Below, piece after piece: positions 13,805 to 49,663 of a DNA stretch of 64,000 nt. Both the position numbers and the translations under genes were made by a program. Location: the NCBI GenBank assembly GCA_963920525.1, contig OY986439.1, forward strand, positions 43,430,193 through 43,494,192, in the 5' to 3' direction. Source of the DNA: Dichetophora obliterata. Its lineage: Eukaryota > Arthropoda > Insecta > Diptera > Sciomyzidae. How positions within the stretch are numbered: the first letter of the stretch is position 1; each line of letters starts with the position of its first letter. The notes beneath the pieces are model-generated. The model was not told the DNA's origin. It was given only the letters and a program-made list of their open reading frames with translations, and ran no database searches.

Positions 13805-14660
13805 TTAAGCTAGGATTAATTTACAAGTGTCTGGAAGTATCTAAGAAGGAATTGTCACGGGCATTATTTGTTGCATTCCGTTCAGCTGTGCTTAAATGTG
13901 GCACTTCATTCATCGATAATATATTATCAAAATTTTCTATGTTTGTGGGCGGTGTTAATTTTACTCTTAAACCAAAAGCTAAAAACGGAAAACGACGCTT
14001 GATTACACCAAACGTGCGCTCGATTGCATTGCGTTTTCGAATATGACTTTCGTTGTAAAGTTGATGTTGATTAAATTCGCAATGATATAATGAAGTGGCC
14101 AAATAATGCGTATTACGACTCATTATCAGAATGAAATTGCCAAAGTCACACCGCTCCAACTGCATTTTTAAATTCAAATTATTGAAAATGGTTTGGTCAT
14201 GCGACGCTCCAGGCCAACGTGCAACGATGTTTGTAACTTTCATATCAGCTCAAAAAACTAAACTTAAAATATGCTCACGCTGGCGAAATCAGCTATAGCA
14301 ACTTGCATGGAACCTAGCGCGTAAAATGATAATTACAAAGCAAAGCAATCAGCAATCGAGCGATGCGACGTGTATATCACGGTTAAGCAAAACAAGGATT
14401 AAACTAATAAAATAAAGTTCAATGAAGACATATTCCTAAGGTAAAAATTTACCTTTTTTGGATATGGATAATCTTTTGCAACTTTTGAACAACCGTTCCT
14501 TTTGACAAACGAAAACGAAAGATGAATTCTTTGTTAACCAACTTGTTCAAATCAATGCGCTCATGCATTTTGTAATGTCTTCGCTCGACTAATAACATCC
14601 AATTTTTTCATCCGGATTCAACACTGAAAGTATCGCAACGTCGGTTCAATTCGAGTAGTT
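13805..14660 (-). pseudogene. Harbinger (HARBI1-like) DDE transposase, broken
   Basis: DDE_Tnp_4 transposase that would cut and join Harbinger ends at TWA sites. The minus strand shows an N-terminal piece 'FIFRFRLSKGTV' near 14490-14530, typical of HARBI1 proteins, a candidate intron or gap, then a 140-codon frame (14243-13821) with 'ARWPGASHDQTIFNN' (second acidic catalytic site) and 'RKRNAIERTFGVIKRRFP' (the E of the triad lies in 'IERTFG'). Family members are about 350-400 aa, so much of the centre is missing or too decayed to see. It runs opposite to the Myb-like gene, the usual arrangement. Confidence 0.85.
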
Positions 14661-26305: not shown

Positions 26306-27618
26306 AAGGGTGTCCCAACAAGAGCGCAAATTTTAAATTTTAAATAAAACACATATATTTAAAAAAAAAATCGTGAAACTTTATTATATCGTAAAGTAGA
26401 CAGAATGAGGTTATGTATGGAACAATATATCGTGAAGATGGCCGCCGCGGTTTTGCTGGCATACATGCGATCTTTTAATGAAATTTTCAATGACCGTTTT
26501 GCATAAATGCTGCGGTATTTCATTAATGCAGCTTCAAATTTCCTCTTTTAAGGCTTGAGTCGTCGTCAGCTTATTCGCGTAAACCATCGACTTCAAAAAA
26601 CCCCAAAGAAAAAAATCTAATGGTGTTAAATCGCACGATCTAGGCGGCCAATTCTGATCTCCAAAACGCGAAATAACACGACCGGGAAATGACTGATGCA
26701 GCAATTGAATTGTTTTTTTTTTTTGGCTGTATGACATGTGGCGCCGTCTTGTTGGAACCACATGCCCTCCACATTCATTTCTTCAATTCTAGGCAAGAAA
26801 AAACTGGTTATCATTTCACGATACCGAACACCATTGACTGTTTGCGATTGACCTGCCTCATTTTCATAAAAAAAAGGTCCAATGATTCCTCCAGCCCAAA
26901 AACCACACCACACAGTGACACGTTGAGGATGCATTTGCTTCTCGTGAATCACTCGAGGATTTTCCTCACCCCAAATGCGACAATTCTGCCTATTGACGAA
27001 GCCATCAAGATGCAAATGGGCCTCGTCACTGAAGATGATTTTAGCGGCAAAATCAGCATTTTCATGTTGTCACTCCAATACCCAATTAACGAACTCCCTT
27101 CGCTATCCATGCATGGTCAGCTGGCTTCAGATCCTGAGTCAATTGAACTTTGTATGCATGAAGATGCAAATCTTTCGTCAAAATTCGCTGCTTAGTGGAT
27201 GTGGAGACACCAATTTGCTGAGCTCGGTGTCGAATTGAGGTGGATGGAGTTTGAGCGACATCATCTCGTACAGCTGCGACATTTTCGGTCGATCGACCTG
27301 GTCGAAGCCGCGTTGTTGTCTTTACATCACTAAAAGACCCAGTTTCGGCAAATTTATCCATTAATCTCTTTACAGTTGACCCTTTTGGAGCATTATTGTG
27401 ACCCCAAATTGATCGCAATTTGCGAACTGTATCCGCAAAACTTTCACCATTTTGGTAAAACAATTTCACAATGAGAATGCGTTGTTCATTCGTGTAGCGC
27501 TCCATTTTTACTAACCTCGTACCTTCTACTAGCAAACAATAACAATTGTTCAAATGTCAAACAATGACACTTCGAATGGCGCCAAATTTAAAAATTGCGT
27601 TCTTGTTGGGACACCCTT
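26306..27618 (-). mobile_element. rosa/DD41D-like mariner element, 1313 bp, structurally complete
   Basis: Inverted ends AAGGGTGTCCCAACAAGA (about 33 bp with few mismatches), flanked by TA at 26304-26305 and 27619-27620. Copy 1 of the surrounding Tc1 element gives an empty-site comparison ('TTAAATTGAGGAGTAGC' at 19142). The only gene is a minus-strand transposase with two frameshifts. Length and ends are those of a complete element. Confidence 0.93.
26534..27504 (-). pseudogene. Transposase of the rosa/DD41D-like mariner, two frameshifts
   Basis: The product would begin 'MERYTNEQRILIVKLFYQNG' at 27504 (a helix-turn-helix), followed by 'STVKRLMDKFAETG' and the linker 'RPGRS'. The catalytic part has 'LDGFVNRQNCRIWG' after the first D, 'FQQDGATCHTA' with the second D, and 'SCDLTPLDFFLWG' with the third. 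The spacing from second to third D is about 39-43 residues depending on a poly-A tract, compatible with the DD41D rosa family rather than DD34D mariner. Frameshifts are near 27090 and in a run of 12 A (26714-26725 as T on plus), the latter possibly a slippage error. Plus-strand frames here are antisense shadows. Confidence 0.85.
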
Positions 27619-30947: not shown

Positions 30948-32394
30948 CAGAAAACTGCACAAGCCTACTTGAAGTTTATTTCAAGTACTTGCTTGAAATA
31001 CAAGTTCAAGCTAGCTTGAGCTTGATAATTTTGAATCAAGTATAGCTTGTAATTGAATATAAATAAGCCCACGACAGCTTGCGACTTGCAAGTATGCTAG
31101 CTTACAAGCGAACGGTACGAAGTTTCAAGTAAAGGAAAGCTTGATGCCTTCGGCAAAAAGCTTGAAAAGCTTGAAAATACTATAATTGAAGCAAGTATCC
31201 AAAAAATTCAATGAGCTTGTTTAGAGAGAGCTTAAGCGTAATAGGACTTTTAAGGATTCTATGAACTACGAGGTTGGAAGTTTTAGGGGTAAATGATTTC
31301 GAAAATGATGTCAAACTTTAAAATTTAAGATGGCGGATAGAGTTGCCACCTAGATTTTTTTTATTTTTACGAATTCTTGTAATTTTGAAATTCTGACAAC
31401 GGATTTGATTTCGAATATAATGTCACAGTTTTAAAATTTAAGATAGAGGTTAGGGTTGACACCTAAATTTTTACCACAGTATTGCCACCTAATAAAATGT
31501 ATTTTTAAGAATTTTAAACATCATTTATCAGTGTTAAGGGGTTGCTGATTTCGAATCTAAAGTCAGAATTTTGAAATTCAAGATGGTGGATAGGGTTGCC
31601 ACCTTCATTTTTTGCATTTTTATGAATTCGGGGCTGGCAAAAAAAACCCCAAAAAGGGGTCGCTGAATCCGAATCCGTTGTCAGAATTTCCAAATTATAA
31701 AATTTTTAAATAATAGGGTTGCCACCTAATAATATGTCTTTTCTAGAGTTTTAAACGTCATTTATCAGTGTTAAGGGGTCGCTGATTTCGAATCTAAAGT
31801 CAGAATATTAAAATTCAAGATGGTGGATAGTGTTGCCACCTTAATTTTTTGTAGTTTAATGAATTCGGGGCTGGCAAAAAAAATGGTACACCAAAATGAT
31901 ACACCGTTATCAGAATTTCCAAATTATAAAATTTGAAATAATAGGGTTGCCACCTTATAATATGTCTTTTCAAGAGTTTTAAACGTCATTTATCAGTGTT
32001 AAGGGGTCGCTGATTTCGAATCTAAAGTCAAAATGCTAAAATTGAAGATGGTGGATAGTGTTGCCACCTTAATTTTTTGTAGTTTTATGAATTCGGGGCT
32101 GGCTTAAAAAAATGGTGCACCAAAAATGAGTCGCTGATCCGAATCCGTTGTCAGAATTTCAAAATTATAAAATTTTGAAATAATGGGGCTGCCACCTAAT
32201 AATATGTCTTTTCATATGTCCTTGAATTGAAACTTCGTGCCGTTCGCTTGTAAGCTAGCATACTTGCAAGTCACAAGTTGTCGTGGGCTTATTTATATTC
32301 AATTACAAGCTATACTTGATTCAAAAGCTAGCTTGAACTTGTATTTCAAGCAAGTACTTGAAATAGACTTCAAGTAGGCTTGTGCACTTCTCTG
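30948..32394. mobile_element. hAT-like element with ~170-bp inverted ends and internal tandem repeats
   Basis: The ends CAGAAAACTGCACAAGCC and (inverse) CAGAGAAGTGCACAAGCC begin inverted arms of about 170 bp that are full of 'CAAGCTTGAA'-like words. The CAG start is hAT-like, but the flanking 8-mers (ATTGGCAT, GTTGCTAC) match poorly, so the superfamily is uncertain. The interior is a tandem array. No transposase. Confidence 0.6.
31290..32215. repeat. ~230-bp tandem repeats inside the 30948-32394 element
   Basis: The phrase 'CAGTGTTAAGGGGT' recurs at 31531, 31768 and 31996, giving periods of 237 and 228 bp. Each unit also carries 'GCTGATTTCGAATCTAAAGT', 'AAGATGGTGGATAG' and 'GAATTCGGGGCTGGC'. 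Three good units follow one or more decayed ones from about 31290. Confidence 0.88.
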
Positions 32395-33301: not shown

Positions 33302-34264
33302 GGAGTTGGAATTAATTTTAAAGGTTTTTTTCGGTTTTTGAGCATTTATTTAGAAACAACTGTACAATGTATATTTTTCAAAGTATTGTCCATCGTTAGC
33401 TACAACATTTTCCAATCTTTCTGGCAGCATATGGATTCCGCGCCGGAAGAACGATTCGTCTTTTGAGGCAATCCACGAATCGACCCATTTTTTGGTATCC
33501 TCGTAAGAAGTGAAGCGCTGCTCAGCCAAGCCATGCGTCATCGATCTGAATAGGTGGTAGTCGGAAGGGGCTATGTCTGGGCTATAAGGCGGGTGGGGTA
33601 GCACATCCCAATTCAGCGCCTCCAACGTTTCCTTGACGGTTCTTGCAACATGTGGCCGTGCGTTGTCATGTTGAAAAACCACTTTGTTGAAAAATCATGT
33701 TGAAAAACCACCTCTCGGCTTCAACTGGTACGGCACCCAATTTCCTTGCTTTTGAATCATTCCCATGGCCTTCAAGCGTTTGCCGACCGTTGATAAGTCG
33801 ACTCCCAATGATTCTGACAATTCTTGAAGGGTTTGACACGGGTCTTCATCGAGCAAAGCCTCCAATTCCTCATCTTCAAACTTTTTCGGCTGGCCCGGAC
33901 GCTCTTTGTCTTCCGTATCAAAATCACCACTTTTAAACCGACGGAACCAGTACTTACAAGTAGAAATCGATGGAACATAGTCCCCGTAAGCCTCAGTAAG
34001 CGTGCGTTGTGCTTCAACCGCTTTTTTCTTTAAATGGAAGCACAAAAGTAAACCTTCCCGCAAATTGCGTTTTGTTGGAACGAAAGTCGACATGTTCACA
34101 GAGAAAAAAATATATGTTGTTTACACTTCAGTGGAATGACACATACTGAAAAATGAAGCTTAGACAATGTGCTTTGAAATGAATATAGTCACAGGTGTGC
34201 CCGATGCGATCTATTGATAGTTACGCCATCTCTTAGAAAACCTTTAAAACTAATTCCAATCCCC
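33302..34264 (-). mobile_element. Mariner (mauritiana subfamily), 963 bp, internally deleted
   Basis: Inverted ends of about 28 bp (…TTGGAATTARTTTTAAAGG) with TA at 33300-33301 and 34265-34266. A full element of this group is about 1.28 kb; here roughly 110 codons from the centre of the transposase are missing. At the deletion junction (about 33667-33710) the string 'CATGTTGAAAAACCAC' is present twice, suggesting repair of an aborted excision. Confidence 0.92.
33350..34093 (-). pseudogene. Mauritiana-type mariner transposase with central deletion
   Basis: The N-terminal half begins 'MSTFVPTKRNLREGLLLCFH' at 34093 and holds both helix-turn-helix units and 'LQELSESLGVDLSTVGKRLK', up to 'GNWVPYQLKPR'. 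After the junction the C-terminal half has 'MVFQHDNARPHVARTVKETL' with the second catalytic D and 'YSPDIAPSDYHLF' with the third, spaced as in DD34D, then 'LPERLENVVANDGQYFE'. The first catalytic D and about 110 residues are lost, so the protein cannot be active. Apart from the deletion the two halves are almost free of damage, so it is young. Confidence 0.93.
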
Positions 34265-35363
34265 TAGCTAATAAAGTAAGTACCTTCAAAATTTTATTGA
34301 GGGAGAAAGTTTTTAACCTATTTCTTTTGACGTACAATTACGTTTTATAGCGTGGTTTGCATGGAGGTCATTTTCAAGAAATTTGTTCGAGAACAATAAC
34401 GTTTGTAGTGGACTCTTTGGGTTATATCTATAGCCATTAATATTTATCGTACAAAGATAAAATATATGCCAAAATATAAGTTATGGCTTTTTTTAAAACT
34501 CCAAACACAACATCGTTTCGTTTATTAAAACGAATCGTTTTATATACATATATTTTTCCACGTAACTGCTTGTGTTGTTGTTAGTAATATTAATATGTTT
34601 GTAAAATTAACGTACGGACAAATTCACAGAAAATTATACCGTGATCAAAAAATTCTAACTTATTAAAAAAGTTTTATTTTGTGATATTATCTAATATTAC
34701 CTTATTGATTTAAGCAATTTATGCATAATTTCATTTACCATGATGATCAAATAGTCTGCACTGTTTCATAAATGTAGTTTTTCTTTTTCGTAAATGTTTA
34801 CTAAATGTTTCGTAAATTTGTTTTGTTTTTGAAAAATGGAAGGCATTGGCTTAAGATAATGAAAAAAATGTTGAGGCAAGGAAAGAAAAAAATATTAAAT
34901 CTGTTTCAAAGTACTGAATTACATAATTACTTAAAAACCATATTATCTACTTAATTGCCCAATTGAATTAAAATGTAAAAATGTGTAACGTCCGACACGT
35001 AGCGTCCGAACAAGTAAATTTCTAACTGTGACTTTAAAAATACGATATTTGATATTTAATTTGCAATTTTTTGTTTCTTTAAACTTTCGAGGTGCGATCG
35101 CCTATTTCGCAGAAATATTCTAAGTTCGAGTGTTAGTCTCTCAGGAACTTCCTTTTTTATAAACGTCCAAATACATGAAAAAATAAAAAGAAATTTTAAG
35201 TAAAATGCGGTTAGACGGAGGTTGTTATAATTATTTTAAATTAAACTCATGAGAACCAGATACATCTTAAAGTAAAACCTTTTAGTAAAATTTGCTATAT
35301 ATATGAAAAAATATATCAGAATGTAACGTCTGAACGCTAGGATTTACCCATACATAAGCACCA
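34265..35363. other. AT-rich DNA, nothing recognised
   Basis: No conserved protein, RNA or clear repeat end was seen. Confidence 0.35.
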
Positions 35364-35548
35364 GGCTAGGTCGATTTGTATGGAGGTAAAAATTTATGTT
35401 GCCTGGGCGATTTTCGGATCGGGCATTAAAAGTTTTTTTTTAAAGAGGGACGATAGGGGATCACTTTTATCTATCACATCTTAAATTTTGTGAATTTTTT
35501 CTTTAGGAAATTTTTTCAATAGAAAACTGTTTTTCAATTTGTATATAA

Positions 35549-36629
35549 TAAACCTCTGCACGAGTGCGCTTGAAATGCATTTCAGAACACAGCGTTGGTT
35601 ATGTTAGGCTTTCTTTAATTAGAACAAACGTAAAACTGCAGAGAGCACTCGTGGCGTGAGCAGAACAAGAACAAAAGAAAACCGAATCAATGTTATGCTT
35701 GAGTCGACAGAGAAGAAACCAGCAGAACGAAATGACTTGAAAGTTATGTTATGAACAGCAGAACGCTTGGAGTTATGTGTTGTTTAGGTTTCATAGTTTC
35801 TGCATTTCCTTGTGAAATAAAAATCATCTAAAACGCCAAAAAAAGGGATTTTCTTATTATATATCGAAATTATAATAAGAGACTTTTTTATTTACTATGG
35901 AAATTAATTATTTTTTTTTCATTTTTCACAATATTTAATTCAATAAAAGTTATTAAAGAATTAAAAATAAATATATATTTTAAGTAACAACAAAAAAAAT
36001 TATTTAAATTTTATTGTGTTGTTTATGAGGATATTTTCTTGTTGTTTTACTTTTACTATTGGTGGTGGTTTTTTTTTATTATTGTTTCTTGCATTCTTAT
36101 GATGTTGGATTGTTGTTATTGTTGTTTTTTCTGTTGATGATTATAATGATGATTAATTTGTAAATATGATTACTAGTAATGATGTGATTACGTTTGTTGT
36201 TGGCGTTGTTGTTTATGGTAGTATTGGTGTTGTTTTTGGTCTATTGCGATGCTGTTTATGTTTTTCATTGTTATTATTTTGTGGTATATCTTAGTAAAAC
36301 TGAATGATCTACTAGAAAAATGTGATTTCGGAGGGTATATTCGGAGAAATATTTAAGGTAATTGAAAAAGAACGCCAGTATTTTATGCCAGGGCCTTAGT
36401 CAGTAATTTTTTTTCAAAATTAAAATATAGAAAAAAACATCGTGTTCTGGTAAAGCAAGCGGCGAACAAGTTCTGTTTTGAAGCCGACGAGTGCTCTGCA
36501 CTGCTCGGTTCTTGTCGTTTAATGAATTGGTTATGTTCTGCCTGACTTAACAGAGTTATGTTATGTTCTGAACTCGGCACTGTTGGCTCTACTGTTGTAG
36601 AAAAACGAGTGCATTTGTGCAGAGGTTTA
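35549..36629. mobile_element. hAT-like MITE, 1081 bp, with subterminal CAGAAC repeats
   Basis: Ends TAAACCTCTGCAC and inverse GTGCAGAGGTTTA, flanked by GTATATAA (35541-35548) and CTATATAA (36630-36637), an 8-bp duplication with one mismatch. The left 200 bp has repeated GCAGAAC words and the right 200 bp repeated GTTCTG words, i.e. inverted subterminal sites, as hAT transposases require. The centre is AT- and GTT-rich. No transposase. Confidence 0.8.
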
Positions 36630-36812
36630 CTATATAAACGGTCACAGCTAGAACAAAACTAATGCCAGAAATGAAATACTCGTACCCGATTCAACCTAAT
36701 AGCTCACATTTAATATTTTTTATACAGACATTCATCGTAAAAAATTCCTAAAGGAAAAAGTTCACAATATTCAAGGTATAATCTTAACGTTGGTGTCTAT
36801 GGATTTTTTACT

Positions 36813-37250
36813 ATCACGGCTGAACCACTGAAGCTATCACCCTTATATTCACAACATGTGTTTGTGTGGTCCTCCGAAATTTTTTTGTTTTTTATATTGA
36901 TTTTTTGTTTTTTAAATCCCCTAGGTGGCGCTGTGGTCGATTTTTAGGCACCTAGGGGGATGTTTGTGTGGTCCTCCGAAATTTTTTTGATTTTTCGATC
37001 CCCCTAGGTGGCGCTGTGGTCGATTTTTTAAAAAATTGTTTTTATAAACCGATAAAAATCGACCACAGCGCCACCTAGGGGGATCTAAAAAAACAAAAAA
37101 ATTTCGGAGGACCACACAAACATCCCCCTAGGTGGCGCTGAGGTCGATTTTTATCGGTTTTTAAAAACAATTTTTTTTAAATCGACGACAGTGCCACCTA
37201 GGGGGACCAAAAACAACAAAAAAATTACGGTAGGACCACACAGCCGTGAT
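36813..37250. repeat. Alternating palindromic array with CTCF-like AGGTGGCGCT motifs
   Basis: The block is framed by ATCACGGCTG (36813-36822) and its inverse CAGCCGTGAT (37241-37250). Inside, two modules recur in alternating orientation: 'GTGTGGTCCTCCGAAATTTT' and 'CCCCCTAGGTGGCGCTGTGG' followed by TCGATTTTT. AGGTGGCGCT occurs exactly at 36923-36932 (+), 37006-37015 (+), 37067-37076 (-) and 37130-37139 (+); a one-mismatch copy is at 37190-37199 (-) and a broken one near 36949-36958 (-). AGGTGGCGC is the known core of the Drosophila CTCF site. The structure is seen directly; binding is inference. Confidence 0.85.
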
Positions 37251-37334
37251 GCTCAGAAATACATACACTAAGAAAAAAATTAACAAATTCAAGCTTAAAC
37301 TATGACAAAACATGCTTGAAATATCATCGAGCAC

Positions 37335-37860
37335 GTTTTTGGGTTGTTTTAAGCAATTTCGTGGTTGAATAAACTGATCAAAAAGATTTTTATTTTATGG
37401 CTTTTTTGGGTTGTTTTAAGCAATGTCGTTCTTCATCAAACTGAACAAAAATACTCTTATATCGTGACGTTGTTGGGTTGTTTCAAGCAAATTCGTGCTT
37501 GACTAAACTGAAGAAAAATATTTTTATATCATGACGTTTTTGGGTTTTTTCTAGCAAATTCTTACTTGAATAAACTGAAAAAAAAATTTCTTATTTCGTG
37601 AAGTTTTTGGGTTGTTCAAAACTATTTCGTGCTTGAATAAACTGAACAAAAATATTTTTATTTCGGGAACTGACTTGTTTGAAAAAGTGAAACGAAAATT
37701 TGTTTATGTTGAGAAAGCTTTGTTCCGCTGAAGCACTGCCTTCTTTGAACAAATGAAGCGAAATAGTTTTATTCAAACCATTAATTGTTTGAAATAATAA
37801 TAATAATAAACACAAAAAAATGTAAGCAAGCGTTTGTTTGAAAAAACCGTGCTAGATTTT
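37335..37860. repeat. ~67-bp tandem repeat, about five decayed copies
   Basis: 'TTTTTGGGTTGTTT' recurs at about 37341, 37408, 37475, 37542 and 37609, each followed by 'AAGCAA.TTCGTGCTTGA' and 'TAAACTGAACAAAAAT'. Beyond 37680 the pattern fades ('TTTGAACAAATGAAGCGAAA'). Flanking words ACACTAAGAAAA (37268) and the inverse of ACACGGAGGAAAA (about 37858-37870) might be the ends of a small element. Confidence 0.8.
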
Positions 37861-38135
37861 CCTCCGTGTACGCACAATGCGCTTTTTTTAATTTTAGGAT
37901 GACATTTGGGTTTTTGTTTTGTTAAATCTTATAAAAAATATTTTTTTCGTCAGATTATAAAATATGTATTATAAATGTGGTATAAAAAACTTGATGTATT
38001 CTATGCTTTTTTTATTAAATTCGTCAAAGTTAAAACTTTTTTAACAAAAATAAGCTCAATAAAATCCAAAAAATGAAATCACGTTTAAACAATAATAACT
38101 TCGAGCACAAAGTATATTTCAAAGTTTTGTTTTTT

Positions 38136-38401
38136 ACAGCTCTATTCTGGCAAATTAACAAATTGTTAACCAGTATTTTGAATATTTCTATGTGTTTGTT
38201 GTTTTCAAAACAAAATTTAAAGCTCAAAAATCAAAATTTGTTAACGAAATTGTCAATAACTGAAAAGCAGTTGACAATTTTTACCAAAATTGTTTATTTT
38301 TGAGCTTAAAATTTTGTTTTGAAATCAAAAAATTACAATAAACACGTAAAAATATTCAAAATATTAGTTAACAATTTGTTAATTTGCCAGAATAGGGCTG
38401 T
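38136..38401. repeat. 266-bp near-palindromic foldback
   Basis: The ends ACAGCTCTATTCTGGCAAAT and inverse ACAGCCCTATTCTGGCAAAT start arms of about 120 bp that meet near 38260. The pairing is good in the outer 70 bp and looser inside. No target duplication was convincing. Confidence 0.85.
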
Positions 38402-39625
38402 TAGACTTTTTTATGTCTTAATGTCCAATGAATTTTATATAAAAAACAGTTAAAAATGTTAATAAATAAAAATAGAAAAATCTTTGAAATATGACTAAAT
38501 TTTTCAAGGAATGAAAATTTAAGTAAAATTAAGTAGAAAATATCTAGCTAGTAGTTAAGCATTATTGAAGTCAAAGGCTATGACAATCATAAAAAGCGTA
38601 CCTTCTGTTTCTGTAAAAACTTGCTGTATCTAGCTGCTATTAAGAAAGACCACTTAATATGGAAAAGTCTAAAAAGCAAATTTTGCCCTAAAATGCACTG
38701 ATTTCCAAGACAATTTGTAGGTACTCTTAAATTTAAAGAACAATAAAATAGAATTCACAATTTCAAACAAGTTGTGACCTTATTTTGTATTTGCAATGAT
38801 TTTTAAAAAAAGTTAAATTTCGTTAATTTATTAATATTTCGTTAAAAATATTGTTTTGTAGGAGATAAATCTAAAAATTATACGATTTGAAATATTTTTA
38901 GCATGACGTTTGAGTGAAGTGAAATAAACTAAATTTACTATATAAAGACATAAATAAGCAATTTTATACGGGTTTTTTTTTATTAAAAAAAATATGGTTT
39001 GTATGGGAGGTAGACGATGCAGTTGGCCTAGAATTCTGTGCTGTTACTTAATTTAGGCTTAAACTCAATTATACAAAATTTCATGGCCCTAGCTTTTATA
39101 GTTTCTGAGCTAATGCAAATGGCATCCTAAAATCGAAAAAAGCGCACTGTGCAACGTAAAGATTATACCTTAAATTTTGTGAATTTTTTCTTTAGGAATA
39201 TTTTACGATAAATTTTTGTATAAAAACGTATAAGATATCAATTTTGTTCTAACTGTGCGCATTTATATACAAAAATTTTTGACAAAAATTCCTTAAGAAA
39301 AAATTTACAAAATTGAAGATATGATAAGTAAAGTGCACCCCTATCGCCCTCTTTTTTTAATAACTTTTCATACCCGATCCCAAAATCGCCCAGGCAACAT
39401 AGGTTTGCAAATCGACCCAGCCTAATAAATACATATTATTTTTTTTCGTTTTTTGTCGTTTGTAAATGTTTTTTTGAATCTTAAGAAAATCAAAAATGGA
39501 ATCAAAAATAAATAATCTTACTCTTTACAAGTTGTAAGCATTAATGACACAAGCTCAAGCAATGCATGACCTGAAAAAGCCATGTTTTAATAGTTCCGAT
39601 GCAATGCTCAATAATATCTTCTCAC

Positions 39626-40290
39626 CTGGGCTCTCATCACGTAACTTTTAAAACGACTATCGTTTGAACGATACTATCCGACGATATCGTTTTTAGTTTG
39701 CTTCATATAAGTCCATCGCTATCGTCTCGTCTATCGTTGAGTTTTCTACTGTTTGAAAGAATCTGTAAAACATATATGCAGTGCCAAAAGTGAGATTAGC
39801 TTTATGTTTAATTTGTTTTTGGATTTGTTTGCTTTAAAAGTGAAAATTTGAGGAAAACTGTAAGCATATTTAATTAGTTATTTTGATGATAATGTTTTGA
39901 AAATATATTGTTCGGCAGCGACACCTAAGTTAATGGAAATATTGCAACACTTTATTGATGAACATCCGCAGCTGAGCCACAATTACGTCGCAAACATAGT
40001 GTAGGAACGACATTCCATCTATTTGCTAAGGACCACTTTAACAAACAAGTGCCCAAAACATTATAAAATTATTTTTATTATTTCCAACCAGAAAAATAGC
40101 CAAACGATAACAAATTAGCTATCGCGCCAAGCAATCGTTTCGACGATACTATTTGACAGTTGTTTGCCATACATGAAGCAAGCAAAACGATATCGTTTAG
40201 ACGATACATAAAATTAAAGGTTACGTGATGTTAAAGTATCGTTGAAACGATGTCATCAAACGATTCTCGTCATACGTGATGAGAGCCCTG
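39626..40290. mobile_element. hAT-like MITE rich in ATCGTTTNNACGAT palindromes
   Basis: Left end CTGGGCTCTCATCACGTA and inverse of right end CAGGGCTCTCATCACGTA; the right end keeps the hAT-type CAG. Flanking 8-mers (CTTCTCAC, TTCTTCAT) match only partly. Both halves carry repeated palindromes such as ACGATATCGT and ATCGTTTGAACGAT, probably subterminal sites. No coding sequence. Confidence 0.6.
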
Positions 40291-48023: not shown

Positions 48024-49663
48024 ATATTCAATCTGGGGATATTTATTTCCCAATAATTGACACAAACACAGTCTTATCACTTTTAAAAAAATATTAAAAC
48101 ATCATATAAAAGTGGTCCTGATAACATACCTTCATGTATATTAAAATACTGCTGTGAAGAATTAGTAACTCCAATCTCTGTACTATTTACTTCATTATTA
48201 AAATCCTGCTATTTTCCTGCAGCCTGGAAGCATGCATTTATCATTCCGCTGCATAAATCCGGAAATAGGTCTTTAATTGATAACTACCGTGGCATCGCAA
48301 AATTAAGCGTTTTGCCTAAACTTTTAGAGGCAATTGTTACATCACGACTATCGCATAGCGATAACTCTTTAATGTCTCCTTTCCAACATGGATTCCTTTC
48401 TGGAAAATCCACTGTTACCAACCTTCTCGAATTTGCATCAAAAACTATGGAAAACTTTGGAAAAGGCATGCAGACTGATGTTATTTACACGGATTTTAGC
48501 AAAGCTTTTGACGTTGTAAATCACAAACTATTGATCTTAAAATTACATCTTACTGGATTTCCTATACCGTTGGTAAAGTGGATTGAATCTTACTTAAGTA
48601 ATAGAAGACCGTCTGTTATTTTTAAGCTCAAGAAATCACATGAGTTTCCTGTTACTTCAGGAGTACCTCAAGGAAGTCATCTTGGGCCCCTTCTGTTTCT
48701 ACTTTTTATAAACGACTTGCCATCTGTCATAATGCATTCTAGCATCTTAATGTTTGCTGACGACGTCAAACTCTTCCTTTCTTTTAAAAATGATAATGAC
48801 GCTGTATTTTTGCAAGCCGACATTGATCATCTTCATAACTGGTGCAAAACGAACCGTATGAACCTCAACATGAAGAAATGCAAGCATATGTCTTTCTCGC
48901 GCAAACCACCAATTAAATGTACCTTCAAAATTTGTGGTTATCCATTGGAGTCCTTAGATATTTTCAATGATCTTGGAGTTACAATGGATCCTAAACTACG
49001 CTTTAATATTCATGTAAATAAAATAATAAATAGAGCAAATAGTACTTTAGGATTTATTAAACGTTGGGCAAAAGAGTGTAATGATCCATTCATAACGAAA
49101 ACCTTATTCACTTCTCTAGTGCGGCCTATCTTAGAATACGCTTCAGTTGTTTGGTGCCCACGATACGGTTGTTACATAGACGACATTGAATCAGTGCAGA
49201 AACAATTTCTTTTGTTTTGCTTAAGCTATCTTTATTTTAATACTGATTTTCACTTACCATCTTATGAATATCGATTACAACTCTTAAATCTTCCTTCTTT
49301 AAAAATCGGAGAATTATGATAAATGCTTGTTGGATTACAAAACTTTTACATGGATATGTCAACAGTCCATATTTATTGAGTAAAGTATATTTTAATATTC
49401 CTCTTCGTCCTAGAAGATCTTTTGAGTTACTCCACATGAGCTTTTGTAGAACTAAATATTTGCAAAATGAACCTCTTAGAAGCGCTTGCGGTGATTTTAA
49501 TTTTGTATCTAATGTTATATCCTTAAGTGAATCCATGGACTCAATCAAACATAAAATTATAGATTACCTGCAGTACCGTCGTAGATTATGTAAAGTTCTT
49601 TCAAACATATATCTGATGCATCTGGTGATTAGTAAACACATTATCATTAATATTACAATCTAA
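48024..49663 (+). pseudogene. Non-LTR retrotransposon reverse transcriptase, 5' truncated, frameshifted
   Basis: Reverse transcriptase of the Jockey/CR1 superfamily. Motifs on the plus strand: 'KSGPDNIPSCILKYC' from 48108; 'FIIPLHKSGNRSLIDNYRGI' to about 48297; 'QHGFLSGKSTVTNLLEF' near 48385; 'VIYTDFSKAFDVVNH' near 48480-48525 (first catalytic D); 'TSGVPQGSHLGPLLFLLFI' near 48655; and the catalytic 'FADDVKLF' near 48750. It runs in one frame to TGA at 49317-49319, beyond the usual 'SVQKQFLLFCL' region, then a shifted frame (49316-49663) carries the C-terminal domain 'SKVYFNIPLRPRRSFELL'. A further frameshift lies near 48085. It is only lightly decayed. Confidence 0.92.

Follow-up and report, generated by a model that had tools for sequence, protein, structure and literature searches.

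A dispersed palindromic transposon with facing CTCF-type sites in the fly Dichetophora obliterata

Can a mobile repeat spread opposed CTCF-type sites through the genome of a fly? The question is raised by a block at positions 36813-37250 of a 64,000-nucleotide stretch of Dichetophora obliterata DNA (contig OY986439.1; the whole stretch is called the window below), in which a first-pass annotation, made from the letters alone, saw an alternating array of CTCF-like sites carried by a mobile-type repeat. The block is the centre of a degraded copy of a dispersed palindromic, apparently non-coding transposon whose ends read about TAGGCTGGGTCGATTTG and, as anatomy, the idea of a repeat dispersing facing CTCF-type sites is right. 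The explanation that we favour, and consider likely, is that the element is a non-autonomous palindromic DNA transposon, usually with a facing pair of CTCF-type sites that the host CTCF can probably bind. CTCF binding and insulation, which go beyond anatomy, are plausible predictions.

Within the block, the motif AGGTGGCGCT occurs exactly at 36923 (+), 37006 (+), 37067 (-) and 37130 (+), and a fifth time, with one mismatch, at 37190 (-). The set spans 36923-37199, in agreement with the annotated cluster of four exact motifs and one imperfect one, in mixed orientations, within 280 bp. When one mismatch is allowed, the window contains six matches against 0.78 expected, and six or more were found in none of 100 shuffles; the sixth match (39917, -) lies beyond the block. 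These A modules do alternate, as had been noticed, with a second module, B (GTGTGGTCCTCCGAAA), present in three copies and a degraded fourth read directly from the sequence (Table 1). An inner palindrome, with arms 98% complementary, is nested within the outer module pair, and the block folds back on itself as single-stranded DNA with -163.4 kcal/mol against -49.25 on average for shuffles (n=100, z -27). Long inverted arms had been reported around it and are real, both by inverted-repeat analysis and by comparison with other copies. The 10-bp inverted repeat ATCACGGCTG/CAGCCGTGAT, at 36813 and 37241, is present too; it had been taken for the border of the block, and the other copies place it in the inner part of the arms and not at the end of the element. 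A structured RNA was considered and rejected, the window containing no Rfam family at the gathering score and no tRNA.

The 20-bp module was searched for in the 1,312,693,994-base genome, as the annotation had proposed. With at most three mismatches, 1751 forward and 1818 reverse matches were obtained (3569 in all), and the reversed pattern gave none on either strand. This rules out a single-copy locus and, together with the inverted ends and flanking repeats described below, upholds the claim that a mobile-type repeat disperses the module. The exact 21-base form of the module is absent from the bacterial, archaeal and viral contigs searched, and no occurrence of its letters was found in the searched literature; judging by titles, none of the papers listed in searches on CTCF with flies, insects, mosquitoes or transposable elements describes such an element.

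What, then, is the unit that has spread? Two sets of loci (30 and 40), all with an exact module and all on C1, C2 or C3, were fetched; after removal of L007, which overlaps L006, 69 were analysed, modules being counted with up to five mismatches. A facing pair, one + and one - module with the sites about 44 bp apart, is present in 50 of the 69, a single module in 17, three modules in one and four, as two pairs, in one. Five modules were found in none of the 69 fetched loci. The array of the window therefore looks private, and a five-site array is not supported as the dispersed unit: facing sites have indeed spread, usually as a pair and not as the larger opposed cluster first envisaged. The same counts bear on the idea that the window's array is an amplified insulator under selection, in favour of which stand its four exact sites plus a fifth, weaker one, all within 280 bp. 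With no counterpart among the fetched loci, we hold this to be very improbable. Moreover, a query with the 651-bp block gave 1282 candidate places; in the 40 that were scored there were 136 matches, including the window itself, and the best of the others reached 257 bits (83% identity, query positions 4-246) against 1175 for the window with itself. The copy is also interrupted by later insertions. We propose instead that a rearrangement, perhaps between the hairpin arms, multiplied the centre of this copy to five sites; the duplication could have arisen through hairpin repair or template switching. The usual copy of the favoured transposon would carry one facing pair flanked by the second module, and would have spread alone and, in most fetched loci, as a passenger within a second repeat.

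This second repeat, the carrier, surrounds the element in 45 of the 69 loci according to a flank-motif test; the remaining 24, classed as outside the carrier, may include a few that were missed, L015 and L016 resembling a carrier subfamily by eye. Comparison of eight 10-kb loci defines the carrier as a repeat of about 1.8-1.9 kb. At L033:4326-6257 it has ends like TAATGTTACCAACTATACTTAC and the flank GTTATAAC, and a 33-base inverted match (85%) at its ends includes GTTATAAC on both sides. A single insertion of the palindrome into the carrier was apparently multiplied by the carrier.

Of the 24 loci outside the carrier, 6 have both inverted ends in recognisable form, as does the window copy. 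Four of the six (L002, L020, L059 and L071) measure 870-948 bp and have 8-bp flanks that match at 8, 8, 7 and 8 of 8 positions, as in the 8-bp target-site duplications of hAT elements; the flanks of the window copy match at 6 of 8. Duplications of this length, together with TAG/CTA ends, suggest a non-autonomous member of the hAT superfamily. The terminal inverted repeats of hAT-type elements start with YARNG, and TAGGCTGGGTCGATTTG agrees with YAR and not, having a C, with the fifth base. No stop-to-stop open reading frame of 120 amino acids or more was found within 35362-39424. The element, nearly fully palindromic, would probably be mobilised in trans by a hAT-type transposase.

The core of the CTCF site is CCnnYAGRKGGCGCY. 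The matrix scan proposed in the annotation was run with a human CTCF matrix. On this matrix the A modules of the window reach 16.90-17.75 bits, which places them at ranks 1-4 and 6 in the 64 kb; they fit both the consensus and the matrix, in keeping with the resemblance to the CTCF core seen at first. A site containing CTAGATGGCGCT is given as a CTCF site in PMC5739101. The host possesses a CTCF gene at C4:80390374-80391066. Over fingers 1-8 it is 55% identical to human CTCF (E 2.8e-75; E 1.1e-30 for the next-best zinc-finger match), and in the alignment fingers 3-7 have helices that are for the most part conserved. According to PMC5094011, CTCF is present in nearly every arthropod transcript set examined in that study. 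Because the fingers that read the core are largely conserved, the sites of the element can probably bind the host CTCF.

Several points weigh against the favoured explanation. The best score per simulated 64-kb sequence ranged from 8.36 to 20.75 with the same human matrix (n=20), and three of these 20 controls exceed 17.8 by chance, so that a single score is not decisive and each match is good, not extraordinary; five such matches in 280 bp are extraordinary. At position 6, where the matrix favours A, the module carries C; an A would lift a score of 17.54 to 22.22. One in-frame stop was reported in the search row for the host CTCF gene (a separate alignment over fingers 1-8 contains none), and fingers 9-11 were not located. 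As to the element, sampling by exact module on C1-C3 favours young subfamilies; 18 of the 24 loci outside the carrier are without one or both recognisable ends; and in two loci that have both, the flanks match at 3 of 8 positions (L049, 924 bp) and at 0 of 8 (L067, 1597 bp between ends). Finally, the hAT assignment is a guess from the ends and the length of the duplication: P-type elements likewise make 8-bp duplications, and membership of a P-type (Galileo-like) group would fit this length as well as hAT does.

The module might also be the transposon's own recognition or structural sequence, bound by the transposase or a helper protein or forming a hairpin stem, its likeness to a CTCF site being incidental. 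It is no better conserved than the surrounding arms, and its letters include GTGGC, which at one time was put forward as the subterminal repeat of Hermes according to the relevant section of PMC10368747, where the Hermes site is nevertheless revised to AAGT. The module lies near the centre of the element, about 340-450 bp from the ends in L020, and the CTCF-type word recurs with different flanks in at least three, probably four, other families (see below), which the transposase site of a single element would not explain. We regard this explanation as unlikely.

If copies acted as insulators maintained by host selection, the module should stand out among its surroundings, and three small tests speak otherwise. 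Decay was followed in the partner module, the one not selected by the search. Of 23 loci outside the carrier, 16 were usable; in these, mean mismatch to the family sequence is 0.087 for its 12-base core and 0.069 for the arm's first 60 positions. Among the 45 loci with carrier flanks, private substitutions per site amount to 0.0104 in the partner module (mean depth 41), against 0.0115 for carrier DNA and 0.0146 elsewhere in the element; values as low or lower are seen in 579 of 1504 other 21-bp windows and in 83 of the 312 with similar G+C, and the partner module is mostly deleted in 5 of 46 rows. A search anchored solely in the outer arms gave 14 places, both strands each, or 28 rows at 80 letters per row; two of these rows show the module core, and both have a base altered in it. 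Thus, no module-specific conservation was detected in these three tests, and selection for CTCF is not supported by them. The first two are possibly biased, since the loci were picked by an exact module and palindromes can convert their arms. Maintenance by host selection appears quite improbable.

Is the CTCF-type word confined to this element? The pattern CCNNYAGRKGGCGCY has 3002 + 3198 = 6200 matches in the genome against 10 + 12 = 22 for its reversed form, and a control in which AG was changed to GA (same composition, GGCGC kept) has 40 + 35 = 75, its own reversed form having 10 + 5. By Markov models built on the window, 26-31 matches would be expected for the pattern and 41-49 for the GA control; genome-wide, the pattern is about 200 times commoner than base composition predicts. 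Of 100 words among those listed, which all lie within the initial 21 Mb of C1, CCGATAGGTGGCGCT accounts for 38, CCGCTAGATGGCGCT for 7, CCCCTAGGTGGCGCT (the element's own) for 7, and CCTCTAGAGGGCGCC and CCGGTAGGTGGCGCT for 6 each. Twenty short loci (L080-L099) were chosen to cover the word types, and 15 of them fall into four families, F2 to F5 (Table 1). L087 resembles a diverged relative of the palindromic element (F1), while L095, L096, L098 and L099 are without a relative among the 20, save for a 21-base match between L098 and L097. When the CTCF words were masked, matches occurred within families (five F1 loci being used); between families there were only two weak F1-F2 matches, the better of 37 bases (81%, E 9e-5). 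Four, probably five, repeat lineages carry the CTCF consensus and share hardly anything else.

A pattern expected some 30 times in 2.6 billion strand positions should by chance seldom fall within even a single repeat of high copy number, and its presence in several repeat families suggests a common cause; F1 is to be discounted here, since CCNNYAGRKGGCGCY was searched because of the finding in the palindromic element. Tentatively, and with confidence somewhat short of even, we suggest that about five unrelated families (the palindromic transposon, two repeats built of tandem units, a repeat with an inverted pair and a further dispersed one) each captured the same CTCF consensus, nearly all good CTCF sites in the genome being repeat-borne, in a convergent capture by selfish DNA. 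CTCF might keep new copies accessible, reposition them or shield them from silencing.

Table 1. Features of the window copy (window positions) and families of further repeats with the CTCF-type word (loci)
Feature	Position or loci	Strand
Whole degraded copy with later insertions; flanks ATAAGCAC/ATAAATAC, 6/8 matching	35362..39424	
Left outer arm, terminal inverted repeat (C)AGGCTAGGTCGATTTG	35362..35517	+
Left-arm insertion, ~1.1 kb, limits approximate; ends AAACCTCTGCAC/GTGCAGAGGTTT	35543..36631	
Left inner arm, running into first B and A modules	36631..36946	+
Left half of 10-bp inverted repeat ATCACGGCTG, arm-internal	36813..36822	+
B module 1, GTGTGGTCCTCCGAAA	36864..36879	+
A module 1, CTCF-type site	36917..36936	+
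Inner palindrome, apparent second core copy within the first; arms 36949-36995 and 37088-37134	36949..37134	
B module 2	36966..36981	+
A module 2, CTCF-type site	37000..37019	+
A module 3, CTCF-type site, facing module 2	37063..37082	-
B module 3	37102..37117	-
A module 4, CTCF-type site	37124..37143	+
A module 5, one core mismatch, facing module 4	37186..37205	-
B module 4, degraded	37225..37241	-
Right half of 10-bp inverted repeat CAGCCGTGAT	37241..37250	-
Later insertions in right arm; L030/L037, L035 and L071 share parts of 37878-39150	37267..39151	
Right outer arm, terminal inverted repeat CAAATCGACCCAGCCTA	39152..39424	-
F2, unit recurring at ~118 bp	L081-L084, L097	
F3, dispersed repeat	L080, L085, L086	
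F4, units of ~120 bp	L088-L091	
F5, inverted pair ~200 bp apart	L092-L094	

The left-arm insertion of the window copy ends in a 29-nt inverted repeat (86%) containing AAACCTCTGCAC...GTGCAGAGGTTT, and TATATAA stands on either side of it. Comparison with the fetched copies of the same genome identifies a short right-arm fragment at 37241-37266. Further right lie a tandem array of five 67-bp units (80% matches, 37333-37665) and, inside the right-arm insertions, a 67-nt inverted repeat (91%, 38136-38401) with related sequence in L071. A possible further inverted-repeat element was seen by eye at 39628-40289, with ends near GGGCTCTCATCACGTA/TACGTGATGAGAGCCC and several ATCGTTT repeats. Elsewhere the window holds remnants of a Mos1-type mariner transposase (33695-34120, -; HTH_48, E 1.4e-18) and of DDE_Tnp_4 (13821-14249, -), a DUF4817 helix-turn-helix frame (27086-27556, -), a reverse-transcriptase frame (48087-49319, +) and, at 31482-32214, roughly three 228-bp units in tandem (87% matches).

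Mobile elements that carry sites for insulator proteins have precedents. The insulator of the gypsy retrotransposon is likewise a ready-made cluster of insulator-protein sites in a fly mobile element; it differs in the protein, Su(Hw), in the class of element and in that its enhancer blocking is proven. Nearest to the present case are the mammalian SINEs that spread CTCF sites, SINE B2 among them: as set out in the portion of Schmidt et al. (2012, PMC3368268) concerned with them, a repeat family there also multiplies a CTCF-type motif genome-wide by the thousand. SINEs are retrotransposons and their binding was established by ChIP, whereas the element described here, known from its sequence, is a DNA transposon, palindromic and usually with one facing pair in each copy. 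Galileo and Foldback-type elements of Drosophila share the long inverted arms, the reshuffling of arms and the insertion of other elements in them; Galileo belongs to the P superfamily, makes 7-bp and at times 8-bp duplications, and goes without mention of CTCF-type sites in the pertinent text of PMC4168063. Unknown 6 of Calliphora vicina, compared by its description in an excerpt of PMC3630058 alone, is also an unclassified fly repeat, palindromic over 465 of its 488 bp.

A DNA transposon with paired CTCF-type sites would be new, and more so the occurrence of the site in several repeats that seem unrelated. Several repeats with such sites could reshape genome folding if CTCF truly binds them. 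Were this so, this genome would offer a natural test of whether mobile DNA alters the folding of the genome in animals other than vertebrates, and of the reasons for which mobile elements that are not related would converge on the site of one host protein.
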